From: Thalassomonas actiniarum | Lineage (GTDB): Bacteria; Pseudomonadota; Gammaproteobacteria; Enterobacterales; Alteromonadaceae | Direction: 5' to 3' | NCBI RefSeq assembly: GCF_000948975.2 | Contig: NZ_CP059735.1 | Location: forward strand, 4,958,603-5,022,602 | DNA: 64,000 bases | In this document: piece after piece, positions 5,335 through 9,514 of the stretch | Numbering within the stretch: the first letter of the stretch is position 1 | How the letters are laid out: each line of letters starts with the position of its first letter | Made by a program: the position numbers and the translations under genes | Notes under the pieces: model-generated | Told to the model about the DNA's origin: nothing | Databases searched by the model: none | What the model saw: the letters and a program-made list of their open reading frames with translations, nothing else

Positions 5335-5542
5335 CTCAATCCCTAATCTTTTTATTTCATTCCGTCTTTATTAGCTGCAGCCAATGCTGAGCACTAACAC
5401 AACCAACTGTTTTAATTGCCGTAAACAAAAGAAAAGCCAACAAGCTTTCACACACGGTAATCGTTGAATAAGCCCCTTTATTACGGAAACAGACAACACT
5501 AACCGTGCCTTAATCTGCCTTATTTTTTAATGGGGCACTCAA

Positions 5543-5599
5543 CAATGATTTCAATGATTTCAAAGAAATCATTGAGAGTCAAGCAAAATGAAATCATTG
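5543..5599. promoter_or_regulatory. four-copy operator array (CAATGATTTC / GAAATCATTG)
   Basis: CAATGATTTC occurs at 5543-5552 and 5552-5561. Its exact reverse complement GAAATCATTG occurs at 5565-5574 and 5590-5599. The array sits 68 bp before the ribbon-helix-helix gene and about 210 bp before the divergent XRE gene. Symmetric multi-copy operators are typical of autoregulating ribbon-helix-helix proteins. Confidence 0.6.
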
Positions 5600-5667
5600 T
5601 ATACATTAGCTAATGGGCAAATTGCTGTTCCAGCCCAAATACCATTTATCTAAAACAGTGAATAAAT

Positions 5668-5841
5668 ATGAAAAAAGACGCAGTAGTAACTGTCAGGGTT
5701 GAGTCTGAAATACACAGCATTCTTAATGACTTAGCAAAGAAAGATGATCGAACCGTTGCTTGGATTGCCCGCACGCTGATTGCTGAAGCGCTTGAAGCCC
5801 GTAATCTGCTACCTTCTCAAGATAAAGAGCCAAGCAGTTAA
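5668..5841 (+). CDS. ribbon-helix-helix (CopG/Arc-type) DNA-binding protein
   Basis: A 57-residue protein, below the usual calling length. Residues 5-12 (AVVTVRVE) form the DNA-reading beta strand. Residues 13-46 give two helices (IHSILNDLAKKDDRT, then VAWIARTLIAEALEAR). This is the classic CopG/ParD/MetJ-like fold, which works as a dimer. Such proteins are antitoxins, plasmid copy-number regulators or repressors. No toxin frame follows within 500 bp. The four-copy inverted 10-mer array just upstream is the obvious candidate for its own operator. Confidence 0.7.
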   Translation: MKKDAVVTVRVESEIHSILNDLAKKDDRTVAWIARTLIAEALEARNLLPSQDKEPSS

Positions 5842-6376
5842 GGCAGGAAAACGCTTTACCATAGCTAACCCCTTCCCGTCACCACGCCCGGCACATGTAC
5901 AGACAAAGCAAAAACACAAACCCGGTAAAAAAAGCCATTGGTGAATAGCCTCTGCCGGGAATGAATTTAATTTTTTTGCGTATGCAAAGAAATATTACAA
6001 CCGTCCCAGTATACTGACCCACAACAGATAAAATATTAATCGCCCCAAGATTCCCGGCGCGGTAATTAGCTTTATTATTTAAGCCTGAGCCGTATTACCT
6101 ACCCTGCCAGGTTAGATATGAAGGCAGAAAAAAGTGAGTCCAACCCTTTGCCTGCTTCATAACAAACTTCTTTGTAAAGGTGCCAATTACTGTGGATTTA
6201 TCTAGTATTTTGTACTATTACTTAGTGTGTAATCACTACCGGCTTTCAACCAACATAAAAGAGGATTTAAAGAAATATGATGAACAGATAAAAAGTTCAT
6301 GAACAACTAGGCGCTCCCCCTGAGTGCGGACACACCCAGGAGAAGCTAACCACAACCGATAAAACAGGTATCAATT
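5842..6376. other. intergenic region, 535 bp
   Basis: No gene is visible beyond frames of about 15 codons. A 10-bp palindrome GTTCATGAAC lies at 6295-6304, and an AT-rich promoter-like stretch (TATCTAGTATTTTGTACTAT) lies around 6199-6218. These probably belong to the leader of the small coupled pair that follows. Otherwise I see nothing here. Confidence 0.4.
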
Positions 6377-6532
6377 ATGGCTAAGAGTAATGATAAGCCA
6401 GAGTTTCGCACGGCTAAAGTTTTATTAACAAATCTTTTAACAACAGAGTTTCAACACTCACCTTGCCAACCCCCGTTTATTAGACCTGATTATTTTTGTC
6501 CGGTAAGCCTGATACAGGAGCTGGTCTTATGA
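6377..6532 (+). CDS. small hypothetical protein, coupled to the next gene
   Basis: A 51-residue frame starting with ATG after a weak AGG site. Its TGA overlaps the ATG of the following gene (ATGA), a standard sign of translational coupling. The product is MAKSNDKPEFRTAK at the N-terminus and is rich in Pro, Phe and Leu further on. I do not recognise a family. The coupling, rather than the sequence, supports it as real. Confidence 0.45.
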   Translation: MAKSNDKPEFRTAKVLLTNLLTTEFQHSPCQPPFIRPDYFCPVSLIQELVL

Positions 6533-6867
6533 ATACCTCTAAAAATAACCCCGCCCCCAGCTCTTTTAGCGAAGAGCAAAGTTCAAAAAAAGACGCAGCA
6601 AAGGTTCAAACAGAATGTGACATAAAAAATGTTGAGCAAAAGGCTATTTCCGCTGAAGTATTAGCCCTGGCCAATGACTTTCACACCTTCAGTTCAGACT
6701 GCGCCTTTCTCTGTGAAGCCTTCGCCGCTATTGCCAGCGAACAACCCAGAATAGACGGCTATACCGTTTACGGTTTTAACCGTTATAGCCTTTGGATAAA
6801 AGAGCAGGTGGTAGACTTCGATGAAAGGATACAAAAACTGCAGGAGCATATAAGAGAGCAACACTGA
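6529..6867 (+). CDS. small hypothetical protein
   Basis: A 112-residue protein. The ATG at 6529 is chosen because AGGAG lies 8 bases upstream and it overlaps the previous stop; an upstream start would add 11 residues. Residues 1-45 are a polar, low-complexity region. Residues 48-112 form a helical domain with SDCAFLCEAFAAIA and a C-terminal amphipathic helix (WIKEQVVDFDERIQKLQ). The layout resembles small uncharacterised proteins of Pseudomonas and Alteromonadales (DUF3077/DUF6124-like), but that link is tentative. Confidence 0.5.
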   Translation: MNTSKNNPAPSSFSEEQSSKKDAAKVQTECDIKNVEQKAISAEVLALANDFHTFSSDCAFLCEAFAAIASEQPRIDGYTVYGFNRYSLWIKEQVVDFDERIQKLQEHIREQH

Positions 6868-6936
6868 CGTACTCTAAAGTAATTCCCTCAAATAACTAGT
6901 CTTAACTAAGCCTTAGTATGCATGGTAAAACGATAA

Positions 6937-6957
6937 AAGCCCAACTTAGTTGGGCTT
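6937..6957 (+). terminator. intrinsic terminator after the coupled pair
   Basis: AAGCCCAA at 6937-6944 pairs with TTGGGCTT at 6950-6957 with a 5-base loop. Only a short T-stretch follows. It is 70 bp after the stop of the preceding gene. Confidence 0.55.
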
Positions 6958-7084
6958 CAAAACCACAAATCATTCAATTTTATTGAACAAACCAAACAAA
7001 AATTTCATATTACATACCACAATAGTTTGTCATATGGTTGATCTTTTGTTTTCTGCTTTTCATTCAACTCAGAAGGAATATTAA

Positions 7085-7840
7085 GTGTCACAAAACAATA
7101 GCAATAGCACTGTCACTATCAACTTAGGCTTTATTCAATTCACCATCCCTGGTCGGAAATTCTTAATGATTTCCGGCCCAATCTTTTTACTCTTGATGAG
7201 TTATTTAATTTGGCAAGCCAAAATAGACCAATCCTTTAATGAATATTTTTACCCCGAAAGGTCAGAGCAATATAATAAATTCCACGAGCTTCACCCAATA
7301 ATAGAAGAGTTAGCTAATAGATGGAATAAGGTATCTAATTTAAATGGTTATAAAACGAGCAATGTTAGATATATACGTGATCACATTCATGATGCTTTAC
7401 CTCCCTATAAAAACTTAGCACTAGATAAAGTCAATTTGGTTACTCAAATTGCATGGAACTGGCATCTAGCAAGAATCTTTATAATACTCGCAGACATGGA
7501 GTCAAATTACTCCCACATAGAAAAAGCATTTTTACACCTAAAAAAAGCGGAAGAACTAAGCACTAAAAGCCAGCAGCTAGCTCAAAAAGAGCTTAAACAA
7601 TTAAAAGATATATCCATCCATAAAATGATCTTACGAGAGAGGATAAATGCTTATGCTATTGGCTATTTTATTAAAAAAGAACAGCAAGATTTTTTGCTTG
7701 CTAAAAAGCACCTTAAAAGCCTGGGCGGATGTGATGTACTAACCAATGAAAGGTTTTTCCACAAAAAGATAGCTAATGTAATTAACTGTCCTTATTTAGA
7801 ACTAACACAGCCTGAAAATAATGAAGTGAGAACCGAATAA
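7085..7840 (+). CDS. hypothetical protein with N-terminal membrane anchor
   Basis: A 251-residue protein with a GTG start preceded by AGAAGGA. Residues about 25-45 are one transmembrane helix (FLMISGPIFLLLMSYLIW). The rest is lysine-rich and helical, reminiscent of tetratricopeptide-like hairpins around residues 120-180, and is probably periplasmic. The AT-rich codon use differs from the core genes and suits an accessory origin. No family recognised. Confidence 0.6.
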   Translation: MSQNNSNSTVTINLGFIQFTIPGRKFLMISGPIFLLLMSYLIWQAKIDQSFNEYFYPERSEQYNKFHELHPIIEELANRWNKVSNLNGYKTSNVRYIRDHIHDALPPYKNLALDKVNLVTQIAWNWHLARIFIILADMESNYSHIEKAFLHLKKAEELSTKSQQLAQKELKQLKDISIHKMILRERINAYAIGYFIKKEQQDFLLAKKHLKSLGGCDVLTNERFFHKKIANVINCPYLELTQPENNEVRTE

Positions 7841-7865
7841 GCTATCACTTCAACTTATATTCAAA

Positions 7866-8069
7866 CTACGCCGCCCCTATCGCCGACAAAAACTTTTCAA
7901 GAATTGTAGGTTCATCACTCGGTCTGACGGGGGTCCATCCAGCACCACCATTACCTACAATTACTTGCCCTTCCACAGATTGTTCATCACTAAAATCAAT
8001 TGCAGTCGCCACGCCAGTAAAGGCTAGAGCACAGAACAGTGCTTTTATCGGGGTTTGAATTCTCTTCAT
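7866..8069 (-). CDS. small secreted peptide
   Basis: A 67-residue protein. Residues 1-23 are a textbook Sec signal peptide (KR near the start, hydrophobic core, A-T-A before the cut). The mature 44 residues are acidic, contain GNGGAGWTPVRPS, and end in a short hydrophobic helix (FLSAIGAA). The start ATG has AAGGA 9 bases upstream. It lies convergent to the 7085 gene and about 820 bp from the RiPP-like peptide pair. Whether it is functionally linked to them is unknown. Confidence 0.5.
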   Translation of the reverse strand: MKRIQTPIKALFCALAFTGVATAIDFSDEQSVEGQVIVGNGGAGWTPVRPSDEPTILEKFLSAIGAA

Positions 8070-8598
8070 GAGATAGTGTCCTTCCTTTTTTGTAGTTTTA
8101 GCTGTCGTTAACCTTTAATTGCCATTTGTTAAGACGATGTAATTATAACTATTTAATATACATTAGCAAGAACAAGAGCTCTTCTACAAGTCAATATCAC
8201 CAAGTCCACAAATAATGGCGAAAATTTAATGTTATTAACCGCATACCAAATAGTAATACTAACTTTGAAGCAACTACTACTGGCTCAAAGTAAAGCATAC
8301 TCAGCTTTGTTTATCCAATATTCAAATTGACGAATTTACTCCCTATTTGTGATATTTATTTTAATTACACTACTCTTGCTTTATTGTCTGGCAACATTCA
8401 ATAAATAACATCGAAAAAGATTCTGCAAATAACTTTAATTAAATACCACTTTCTTAATAAGTAACATACCATAATAAACTGTTTCAAAGCGGTCAGCTTT
8501 GCCCTGACAAGATTAGTTAACCAGCCTAATCTTCTTCAACAGAACAGCACTTCTTACAGCGCAATCAAAACTTGGTACCTGCATAGCAAAGAAGATAA
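8070..8598. other. AT-rich intergenic region
   Basis: A 529-bp AT-rich region with no coding frame I can support. The right end runs into the decayed antitoxin-like sequence that begins about 8599. Part of the lost N-terminal half of that gene may lie at about 8545-8598 in another frame. Confidence 0.4.
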
Positions 8599-8718
8599 GC
8601 TTCACGCACGTTGGAAAACTGGGAGCAAGGGCCTAGCGTTCCAAATAGGCTAGCCGTTACTCTGCTAAAGCGAGTACAGCGAAATCCTGAAACTATTGTG
8701 CGCATTGCTGAGCTATAA
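8599..8718 (+). pseudogene. remnant of an XRE antitoxin-like regulator (HigA/NadS type)
   Basis: A 39-codon frame, closed upstream by TAA, encodes a fragment beginning SRTLENWEQG. It continues with VPNRLAVTLLKRVQRNPET and ends in RIAEL before TAA. SRTLENWEQG followed by a Pro-containing turn and a leucine-rich helix is the typical C-terminal half of HigA/NadS-like regulators. The N-terminal half appears in a different frame just upstream (AQSKLGT...), so the gene is frameshifted. No intact toxin partner is nearby. Confidence 0.55.
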
Positions 8719-8891
8719 CAAGCAGCCTAAGAACAATTTATCCCGCCTGGTATTTTTAGTTTGCTCAACACTCATGAAGTACTGTTATGTGCCCAACTAA
8801 AGGAAGCCACTTTTCATTGATATTCTGTATTTTTTATGAAAGGATAAAACTCATTAAACTATGGATGGTATTGAAAAATAAGGATATAAAA

Positions 8892-9056
8892 ATGAAGCTT
8901 AAATTAAATAAACAGAAACTTAAAAACCTTTCTAAAGACCATAAAAATTTACCCAAAGAAGTAACGCTTTTAGTGGGTGGTGGAATTGAGCCCAGATCTG
9001 TTATTAATTACACCTGTTATGGTCTGAAAACTTATGATAGCAATTGTCTGGAATAA
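8892..9056 (+). CDS. double-glycine leader peptide, probable RiPP precursor A
   Basis: A 54-residue peptide. The ATG at 8892 is chosen over an upstream in-frame start because residue 1 onward matches its paralogue at 9171-9350, including 20 shared bases around the start (AATAAGGATATAAAAATGAA). The leader is residues 1-31 (MKLKLNKQKLKNLSKDHKNL... ending VGGG). The core, residues 32-54, holds T-C-Y-x8-C (Cys42, Cys52) plus Ser and Thr. The leader type resembles lanthipeptide-like precursors with a GG cleavage site. No modification enzyme or transporter is found in the window, so it would be modified by products encoded elsewhere. Confidence 0.65.
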   Translation: MKLKLNKQKLKNLSKDHKNLPKEVTLLVGGGIEPRSVINYTCYGLKTYDSNCLE

Positions 9057-9074
9057 GGAAATAAATTAAGTTGT

Positions 9075-9143
9075 AGAAGTTCAAATTAGCCTAACAGCAT
9101 ACCCATCATAAACTGATAGCTGTTAGATCTGGTCTGAACTTCT
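9075..9143. terminator. nested inverted repeats between the convergent peptide genes, probable bidirectional terminator
   Basis: The outer arms are AGAAGTTCA (9075-9083) and TGAACTTCT (9135-9143). The inner arms are CTAACAGC (9091-9098) and GCTGTTAG (9119-9126). AT-rich flanks with AAATAAATT and AATTTATTT extend the symmetry. It sits exactly between the two stop codons, so it can end both transcripts. Confidence 0.6.
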
Positions 9144-9170
9144 GCCAAATAAATTTATTTTAATCAAAAG

Positions 9171-9350
9171 TTATTCACAGTCGCGCTCACTAGGTAACAC
9201 CACATAACACGTCGCCAGATCAGGGCCTTTACCACCAGAGAACCTAGTAACGCCACCCGCTCCCCCAACTTGTGGGGTCATTTCTACAGGCAGGGCACTA
9301 TTGTCTTTTGAAAGATTTTTAAGCTTATTCTTGTTCAGTGAAAGTTTCAT
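9171..9350 (-). CDS. double-glycine leader peptide, probable RiPP precursor B
   Basis: A 59-residue peptide, missed by length cut-offs. The leader MKLSLNKNKLKNLSKDNSAL...VGG is about 70 percent identical to precursor A over 30 residues. The core is different in its Gly-rich first part but ends with the same T-C-Y-x8-C pattern (Cys48, Cys58). The sequence upstream of the ATG is identical to that of precursor A. The genes are convergent, as expected from an inverted duplication. The leader ends PQVGG, a typical GG cleavage site. Confidence 0.65.
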   Translation of the reverse strand: MKLSLNKNKLKNLSKDNSALPVEMTPQVGGAGGVTRFSGGKGPDLATCYVVLPSERDCE

Positions 9351-9514
9351 TTTTATATCCTTATTATTTAATTTTCTTATTAGTAAAACATCGACTTAGC
9401 GAATGCCTGAATAAATTATGAAACAAAATGTAACAGTTAAGTTATTTTTAGGTTACAGCATTCAAAGTTTGATCGTGATCAGTATTAGACTGCCCATGCT
9501 CTTCTGACAAAAGT

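Follow-up and report, generated by a model that had tools for sequence, protein, structure and literature searches.

The window analysed here, a stretch of 64,000 nucleotides, covers C1:4958603-5022602 of the 7.49-Mb genome of Thalassomonas actiniarum (G000), which consists of two contigs, C1 and C2. Two short open reading frames face each other within it, as had been described in an initial annotation made from the sequence alone, one on the forward strand (precursor 1, 8892..9056, 54 aa) and one on the reverse strand (precursor 2, 9171..9350, 59 aa). The first peptide is composed of a 30-aa leader, MKLKLNKQKLKNLSKDHKNLPKEVTLLVGG, and the core GIEPRSVINYTCYGLKTYDSNCLE, the second of the leader MKLSLNKNKLKNLSKDNSALPVEMTPQVGG and the core AGGVTRFSGGKGPDLATCYVVLPSERDCE, and both leaders were confirmed to end in GG at residues 29-30. 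An identical 20-mer, AATAAGGATATAAAAATGAA, was indeed found at the start of both frames (8877-8896 and the complement of 9346-9365) and includes the Shine-Dalgarno sequence AAGGA. The translation-initiation stretch of precursor 1, AATAAGGATATAAAA (8877..8891, forward strand), recurs with the same letters ahead of precursor 2 (9351..9365, reverse strand) and at a precursor at C2:698236. Between the convergent genes a long hairpin is located (9052..9165; about -34 kcal/mol and z -6.2 on the forward, -30 kcal/mol and z -5.0 on the reverse strand), which perhaps serves as a two-way terminator; a simple terminator scan did not call it, and a promoter scan of the pair gave no excess over shuffled sequences.

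The leaders, initially annotated as near-identical, are less alike than that: they agree at 21 of 30 residues, and at the DNA level their identity of 63% takes rank 237 among the 406 own-genome pairs. The window genes are therefore not recent duplicates of each other, and an inverted or recent duplication of one gene was ruled out. Still, tblastn of one peptide against the other (E 1.1e-5) displays a family likeness beyond chance. The T-C-Y-x8-C motif, taken before as a shared core, is present in both cores; its significance is less secure. A Cys-tripeptide and spaced Cys common to two such cores has a chance p of about 6e-4; among the 25 cores outside the tandem set on C2, three shared Cys patterns were seen versus 0.9 in shuffles (p 0.073), and a global core-core alignment gave p 0.066, so that the motif is suggestive and not established. 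Neither peptide matched a Pfam family at E <= 10 and hence no Nif11 leader. The search with lanthipeptide leader models, which the initial annotation had recommended, stayed below the cut-off: the 59-aa peptide reached 12.3 bits against a curated 27 with NCBIfam NF038158 (lant_leader_L1b), its weak likeness to lant_leader_L1b/L1a extending over leader residues 2-18, and the 54-aa peptide was not listed. NCBIfam gave sub-threshold matches only, among them one to ModD that was taken as chance.

The pair resides in an accessory stretch (6448..9502), in which 3055 bases stand against 534 precursor-free bases in Thalassomonas sp. RHCl1 (G061). The two genomes agree at 95-96% on the left as far as 5369 and again from 9503 rightwards; the 4133 window bases between those flanks face 1463 in G061, where 5370-6447 is represented by no more than two patches of lower identity (71% and 78%). 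No orthologue of the pair was found among the copies fetched from the three sampled Thalassomonas congeners, so that the homologous precursors anticipated in relatives exist for the family as a whole but not for these two cores. Two further frames were observed in the vicinity. A 67-aa frame with a signal-peptide-like start (7866-8069, reverse strand) adjoins the pair in the stretch missing from G061, and a 123-aa frame is situated at 6496-6867 on the forward strand (region 6400-6867); neither has an NCBIfam match. The DNA of the latter recurs at seven places in the congener G013 (73-78% identity) and, as numerous shorter matches, in G095 and G061; from these repeats the frame reads as a member of a repeated accessory gene family.

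Regarded at first as orphans, the two genes proved to belong to a genome-wide set. A search of the own genome with the 59-aa peptide yielded 29 places, 23 of them at E <= 1.1e-5 (itself included), and translation and rescanning of the fetched stretches resulted in 29 intact precursors, 27 of them elsewhere than the window pair, plus one 21-aa stub, distributed over both contigs. Most are single genes, apart from four grouped together at C2:518-519 kb and a small number of pairs, and Shine-Dalgarno-like sequences are consistent among the copies. A mobile element as dispersal vehicle was rejected, as the 400-base flanks of the 29 share only the start region, save for flanks containing another precursor. 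Mean leader identity is 64%, while paralogous cores are 25% identical versus 22% when shuffled; many dispersed precursors with one leader and variable cores, the hallmarks of a prochlorosin-like set, are thus present. A scan of 23 members with curated class I leader models of NCBIfam gave four matches, with a best E of 0.11.

Cysteine is found in 27 of the 29 own cores, two or more in 22, and Ser/Thr precedes a Cys in all 27. The same holds for 121 of 126 cores from six genomes, which have Cys with Ser/Thr ahead. Cys accounts for 10.5% and Thr for 11.3% of the residues in 147 cores from 18 genomes, compared to 1.1% and 5.4% in the window's long open frames, which were picked mechanically; these 147 were kept from 153 frames after dropping five (<20 bits or <40 aa) and one without a clear leader end, and the broken or weak copies of G040 and G042 contribute no frame. 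The two Cys-free own cores are precisely those beside C39 exporters (C1:86139-86312 and C1:6396465-6396662), and the second precursor is kept in all three congeners. In G096 (L126:4356-4748) one leader-family core, beside LanB and LanC, is unusually long at about 100 residues and repetitive, with recurring G-S-T-C units.

None of the LanB, LanC/LanM and C39 loci detected genome-wide falls within the window, in agreement with the initial annotation, which had noted no modification enzyme or protease-transporter there. A LanB with adjacent LanC is located at C1:5.278-5.283 Mb (PF04738 455 bits, PF14028 213 bits), 310 kb from the window pair, which is consequently not LanB/LanC-adjacent; two other precursors with the same type of leader adjoin it, with cores of 25 aa and three Cys and of 26 aa and two Cys. 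The best PDB match of this LanB is 9g04 (E 1.9e-58), and NisB (4wd9) matches over nearly the full length (E 1.4e-29). In addition, the genome possesses a lone LanC (C1:2734928-2736148; L060:8929-10149, reverse strand) and a class II LanM of 1116 aa (C2:773089-776439; L059:10090-13440, reverse strand; TIGR03897 997 bits). LanC, lone LanC and LanM display the usual C and C-H ligand motifs, which in LanM read WCHG and CHG, not CCG. Leader-family precursors lie near both the lone-LanC orthologue of G013 (L209) and a further lone LanC of that genome (L135), which suggests that the lone LanC is an accessory cyclase.

Two C39/HlyD exporters, at C1:0.090 Mb (C39a) and C1:6.394 Mb (C39b), each stand beside a leader-family precursor. 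C39b combines a peptidase domain with a membrane and an ATPase domain, and its best counterpart in the PDB is 4ry2 (E 3.6e-101); three further, weaker C39 matches are found on C2. With these three left out of the count, the distance to the nearest of the five enzyme and exporter loci is at most 5 kb for four of the 29 precursors, 9.5 and 13.4 kb for two, and more than 50 kb for 23. The earlier proposal of RiPP precursors whose maturation genes lie elsewhere is thereby supported. Features of class I lanthipeptide precursors are present, namely cores with Cys and Ser/Thr, LanB (PF04738 and PF14028) and LanC in the genome and a leader of the LanB-linked type; the leaders end in GG (or GA/AG) and a C39 exporter is linked to the family, cleavage being predicted.

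In a sample of 196 genomes of the family, the leader was detected in 20 genomes of 10 genera by a profile from 28 own-genome leaders, the own count thus being given by construction. The four Thalassomonas contain 29, 29, 23 and 15 copies, two genomes of another genus 22 (G146) and 13 (G018), and the other 14 genomes one to three. The search of related genomes for enzymes, likewise suggested initially, was rewarding: LanB (PF04738) occurs in 25 of the 196, i.e. in all 20 leader-bearing genomes and in five leader-free ones, and LanC (PF05147) in 19 of those 20, G185 being the exception. While 19 LanB of leader-bearing genomes are full-length at 365-479 bits, the gene of G040 being in pieces, those of the five leader-free genomes are divergent and score only 65-122 bits. 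A second LanB match was obtained in G073 and G175, in the latter with its own leader-family precursor. By chance the overlap of LanB and leader would have a value of about 5e-23 if draws were independent; as the genomes are related (10 genera), the count overstates independence and this is no true probability. C39 is present in 144 of the 196 genomes, and its co-occurrence was discarded as uninformative. LanM-sized frames with a LanC domain are absent in G013, G018 and G146, all with many leaders, and present in the leader-free G011 and G047; LanM as the necessary enzyme was ruled out by the first three. The order-wide search, which scored no more than 20 candidates in each genome, recovered the leader in at least five of 394 genomes, with one genome from outside the family (G286) among the matches listed, and a LanB scan of the genome-contig collection gave a single locus, in Thalassomonas sp. 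RHCl1.

When 17 leaders located <=8 kb from LanB, drawn from 13 genomes other than Thalassomonas, were combined in a profile, it detected all 29 own precursors (E 4e-17 to 3.4e-8), among them precursor 1 with 44.2 bits (E 1.5e-11) and precursor 2 with 50.4 bits (E 1.7e-13), and the next own frame, at E 0.02, is a truncated copy. Orphan and LanB-linked leaders thus form a single family; independent discovery is not demonstrated by this test, because the 17 training leaders had originally been picked up via the own-genome profile.

Of the LanB loci of 19 genomes, 17 have an intact leader-family precursor within the stretch taken, G042 has one with a stop and G018 has none. HlyD and C39 are included in the LanB stretch in 13 of 15 non-Thalassomonas genomes; of the other two, G110 has HlyD at the margin of the stretch and C39 some 4 kb away from LanB, and G185 has a C39 about 12 kb from LanB. 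The four Thalassomonas, by comparison, possess LanB/LanC without exporter and C39b elsewhere, alone with one precursor, and in the three relatives a C39 is at the syntenic place beside the orthologous precursor. C39b is 76-79% identical to the C39 of G018, G146 and (for the part fetched) G025. Given the joint operon of the relatives, Thalassomonas appears to have broken up an operon that included a precursor, with precursors multiplying away from it. The cleanest case is G018, with one LanB, one LanC, one C39, no LanM and no precursor found within the 13 kb around the operon; of its 13 leaders 10 are listed, all away from the operon. G146 likewise has one LanB, one LanC, one C39 and no LanM, and of its 22 leaders one of the 21 listed is at the operon.

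Counted among the fetched relative copies, syntenic orthologues of the 29 precursors number 24 in G061, 12 in G095 and 12 in G013, the latter two with 11 distinct genes each, as a single gene there corresponds to two tandem copies of the own genome. For 21 unlinked orthologous pairs with G061, a set which does not include the window pair since it lacks orthologues, dN/dS is 0.10 in the leader (bootstrap 0.05-0.16) and 0.18 in the core (0.03-0.34), and 12 of the 21 cores are identical at a core dS of 0.24. The unlinked orthologues are under purifying selection in leader and core, and these copies therefore behave as working genes whose single products matter. Cores are sometimes replaced, because two of the 24 syntenic pairs with G061 are <60% identical there. 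Truncated copies are known from G000 (the 21-aa stub, C1:86462, near C39a) and G095 (23 aa, C1:5489640, in a viridisin-type cluster), and stop-bearing ones from G061, G042 and G040, where LanB (L232) is broken into several frames; stubs and stop-bearing copies point to loss as well as gain.

From the family, its dispersal, its co-occurrence with LanB, the match to LanB-linked leaders and the selection on leader and core, all obtained by computation, we infer that both window genes encode class I lanthipeptide precursors that stand alone and belong, with 27 other intact dispersed ones, to a set sharing one recognition leader, matured in trans by LanB/LanC and cut by C39; a probability of roughly three in four is given to this reading. 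Against it speak the sub-threshold scores with the curated leader models, the Cys-free cores of the two precursors beside the C39 exporters, the absence of LanC from G185, and a LanM and a TOMM-like YcaO in the same genome. Binding, ring formation, cleavage, export and any activity are predictions from here on. Each small gene would be transcribed on its own. The single LanB, a thalassomonasin-type dehydratase (C1:5.28 Mb), would bind the leader and dehydrate Ser/Thr of the core, upon which the adjacent LanC, perhaps together with the lone LanC (C1:2.73 Mb), would add Cys to form (methyl)lanthionine rings, in the window cores presumably one or two around T-C-Y-x8-C. The C39 peptidase ABC exporter and its HlyD partner at C1:6.39 Mb would finally cut after GG and secrete the product. 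It is somewhat less certain, but still rather probable, that the system constitutes a class I counterpart of the prochlorosins, in which one LanB/LanC and one C39 mature about 13 to 29 dispersed precursors, in Thalassomonas and separately in G018/G146, the operon being broken up in Thalassomonas, with cores that are kept by purifying selection and gained or lost singly.

The rivals differ mainly in the enzyme assumed. On a class II route the orphans would be prochlorosin-like substrates of the lone LanM (C2:0.77 Mb), and LanB/LanC would serve only its two adjacent precursors. The complete LanM (997 bits, TIGR03897) without a nearby leader-family precursor in G000 and G061, a precursor 0.9 kb downstream of LanM in G095, and the 29, 29 and 23 leaders of the Thalassomonas with LanM versus 15 in the LanM-free G013 speak for such a route. 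It is nevertheless unlikely, as G013 (15), G146 (22) and G018 (13) are leader-rich without a LanM-sized frame, such a frame occurs in G011 and G047 in the absence of any leader, the LanM-like frame of G040 (two weak leaders) is 30% identical to the Thalassomonas LanM, the leaders match LanB-linked ones, and the LanM ligands are the ordinary C and C-H and not the CCG of ProcM. A share of the copies may still go to LanM, because of the G095 precursor beside it and the own LanM with none adjacent. Slightly less probable again are unmodified or disulfide-bonded GG-leader peptides, of the kind of microcins or signals, which C39 would cleave and secrete and which would contain no lanthionine. The GG leader, the C39 and HlyD beside two family precursors with Cys-free cores, and the several Cys in most other cores would suit them; yet C39 is found in 144 of 196 genomes as against 20 with the leader, and 121 of 126 cores have Cys with Ser/Thr ahead. 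Of the two products left open before, lanthipeptide and disulfide peptide, the former is now favoured as a predicted chemistry, because 20 of 20 leader-bearing genomes carry LanB.

Another Cys/Ser/Thr chemistry, with azoles formed by a TOMM-like YcaO or a modification by a radical SAM enzyme, is very improbable. A 717-aa YcaO frame, followed by an FHA-like frame, exists at C1:3179615-3180556 (L248) and resembles a TOMM cyclodehydratase, probably belonging to another RiPP locus, and two of 23 members weakly match TIGR04149 (rSAM-modified RiPP; best E 0.035). The precursor nearest to this YcaO (C1:3.18 Mb) is, however, about 99 kb away, and genome-wide only one weak SPASM match represents radical SAM. 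A second YcaO frame, roughly 2 kb away from a precursor, looks like a housekeeping-type fusion of OsmC and YcaO; the 6-kb stretch around the G013 copy contains an orthologue of it, the corresponding stretch for G061 does not. Least credible of all is that the copies are dispersed relics of once clustered precursors which yield no products any more. The stubs in G000 and G095, the stops in copies of G061, G042 and G040 and the lack of the window pair in three relatives would fit decay, but the core dN/dS, the identical cores in 12 of 21 pairs and the consistent Shine-Dalgarno-like sequences speak against it.

The class I lanthipeptides thalassomonasins A and B from T. actiniarum and viridisins VdsA1-3 from T. 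viridans XOM25 are known; according to a review thalassomonasin A is antibacterial, and lanthipeptides of the genus have already been made in E. coli. By number, core length and Cys count (25 aa/three, 26 aa/two) the LanB-adjacent precursors of G000 and G061 fit the thalassomonasins as described in that review, and those of G095 fit the viridisins by number and Cys count. Precursors of this type have the same leader family as the window pair, but adjoin LanB/LanC, whereas the window pair and most others are far off and have unrelated cores. Prochlorosins and synechococsins of marine picocyanobacteria are described with one enzyme per genome and tens of precursors with hypervariable cores, many scattered singly; ProcM has 29 substrates and SyncM 79, and the CCG zinc site was proposed as a reason for their promiscuity (PMC10783134). 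The organisation is alike here, with one enzyme set, dispersed precursors and variable cores, although prochlorosins depend on a class II LanM with CCG site and a Nif11 leader, in contrast to class I LanB/LanC and a short GG leader, and although, unlike in prochlorosins, two species here share 12 of 21 unlinked orthologous cores unchanged. Compared to known C39 exporters (4ry2 and relatives), C39b is alike in its domains, but C39 is placed in the LanB/LanC operon in relatives and C39b with a lone precursor in Thalassomonas. The simplest account would be a chemistry as in thalassomonasins and viridisins and an organisation as in prochlorosins, i.e. leader-guided class I biosynthesis in trans.

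To our knowledge, lanthipeptide libraries with one enzyme and many substrates are known only for class II (ProcM/SyncM). In the literature searched, to which the primary papers (Thetsana 2022; Vermeulen 2022) did not belong, no report of dispersed class I precursors in Thalassomonas was found. While further lanthipeptides from Thalassomonas would be nothing unusual, stand-alone class I precursors that are spread over a whole genome and served by a single LanB/LanC would be, as far as the literature covered extends. If the proposed reading is true, a natural library would rest on one promiscuous class I dehydratase and cyclase, and broad tolerance would have evolved a second time, with tRNA-glutamate dehydration, a separate cyclase and ordinary zinc ligands. 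Some 25 unexplored stand-alone peptides would be added in this genome, most of them conserved in a second species, and cluster-based mining is likely to skip such precursors because the genes stand alone. Since lanthipeptides of Thalassomonas were made in E. coli, a direct test is possible, and the sets of orthologues let genetics probe what the scattered peptides are for.
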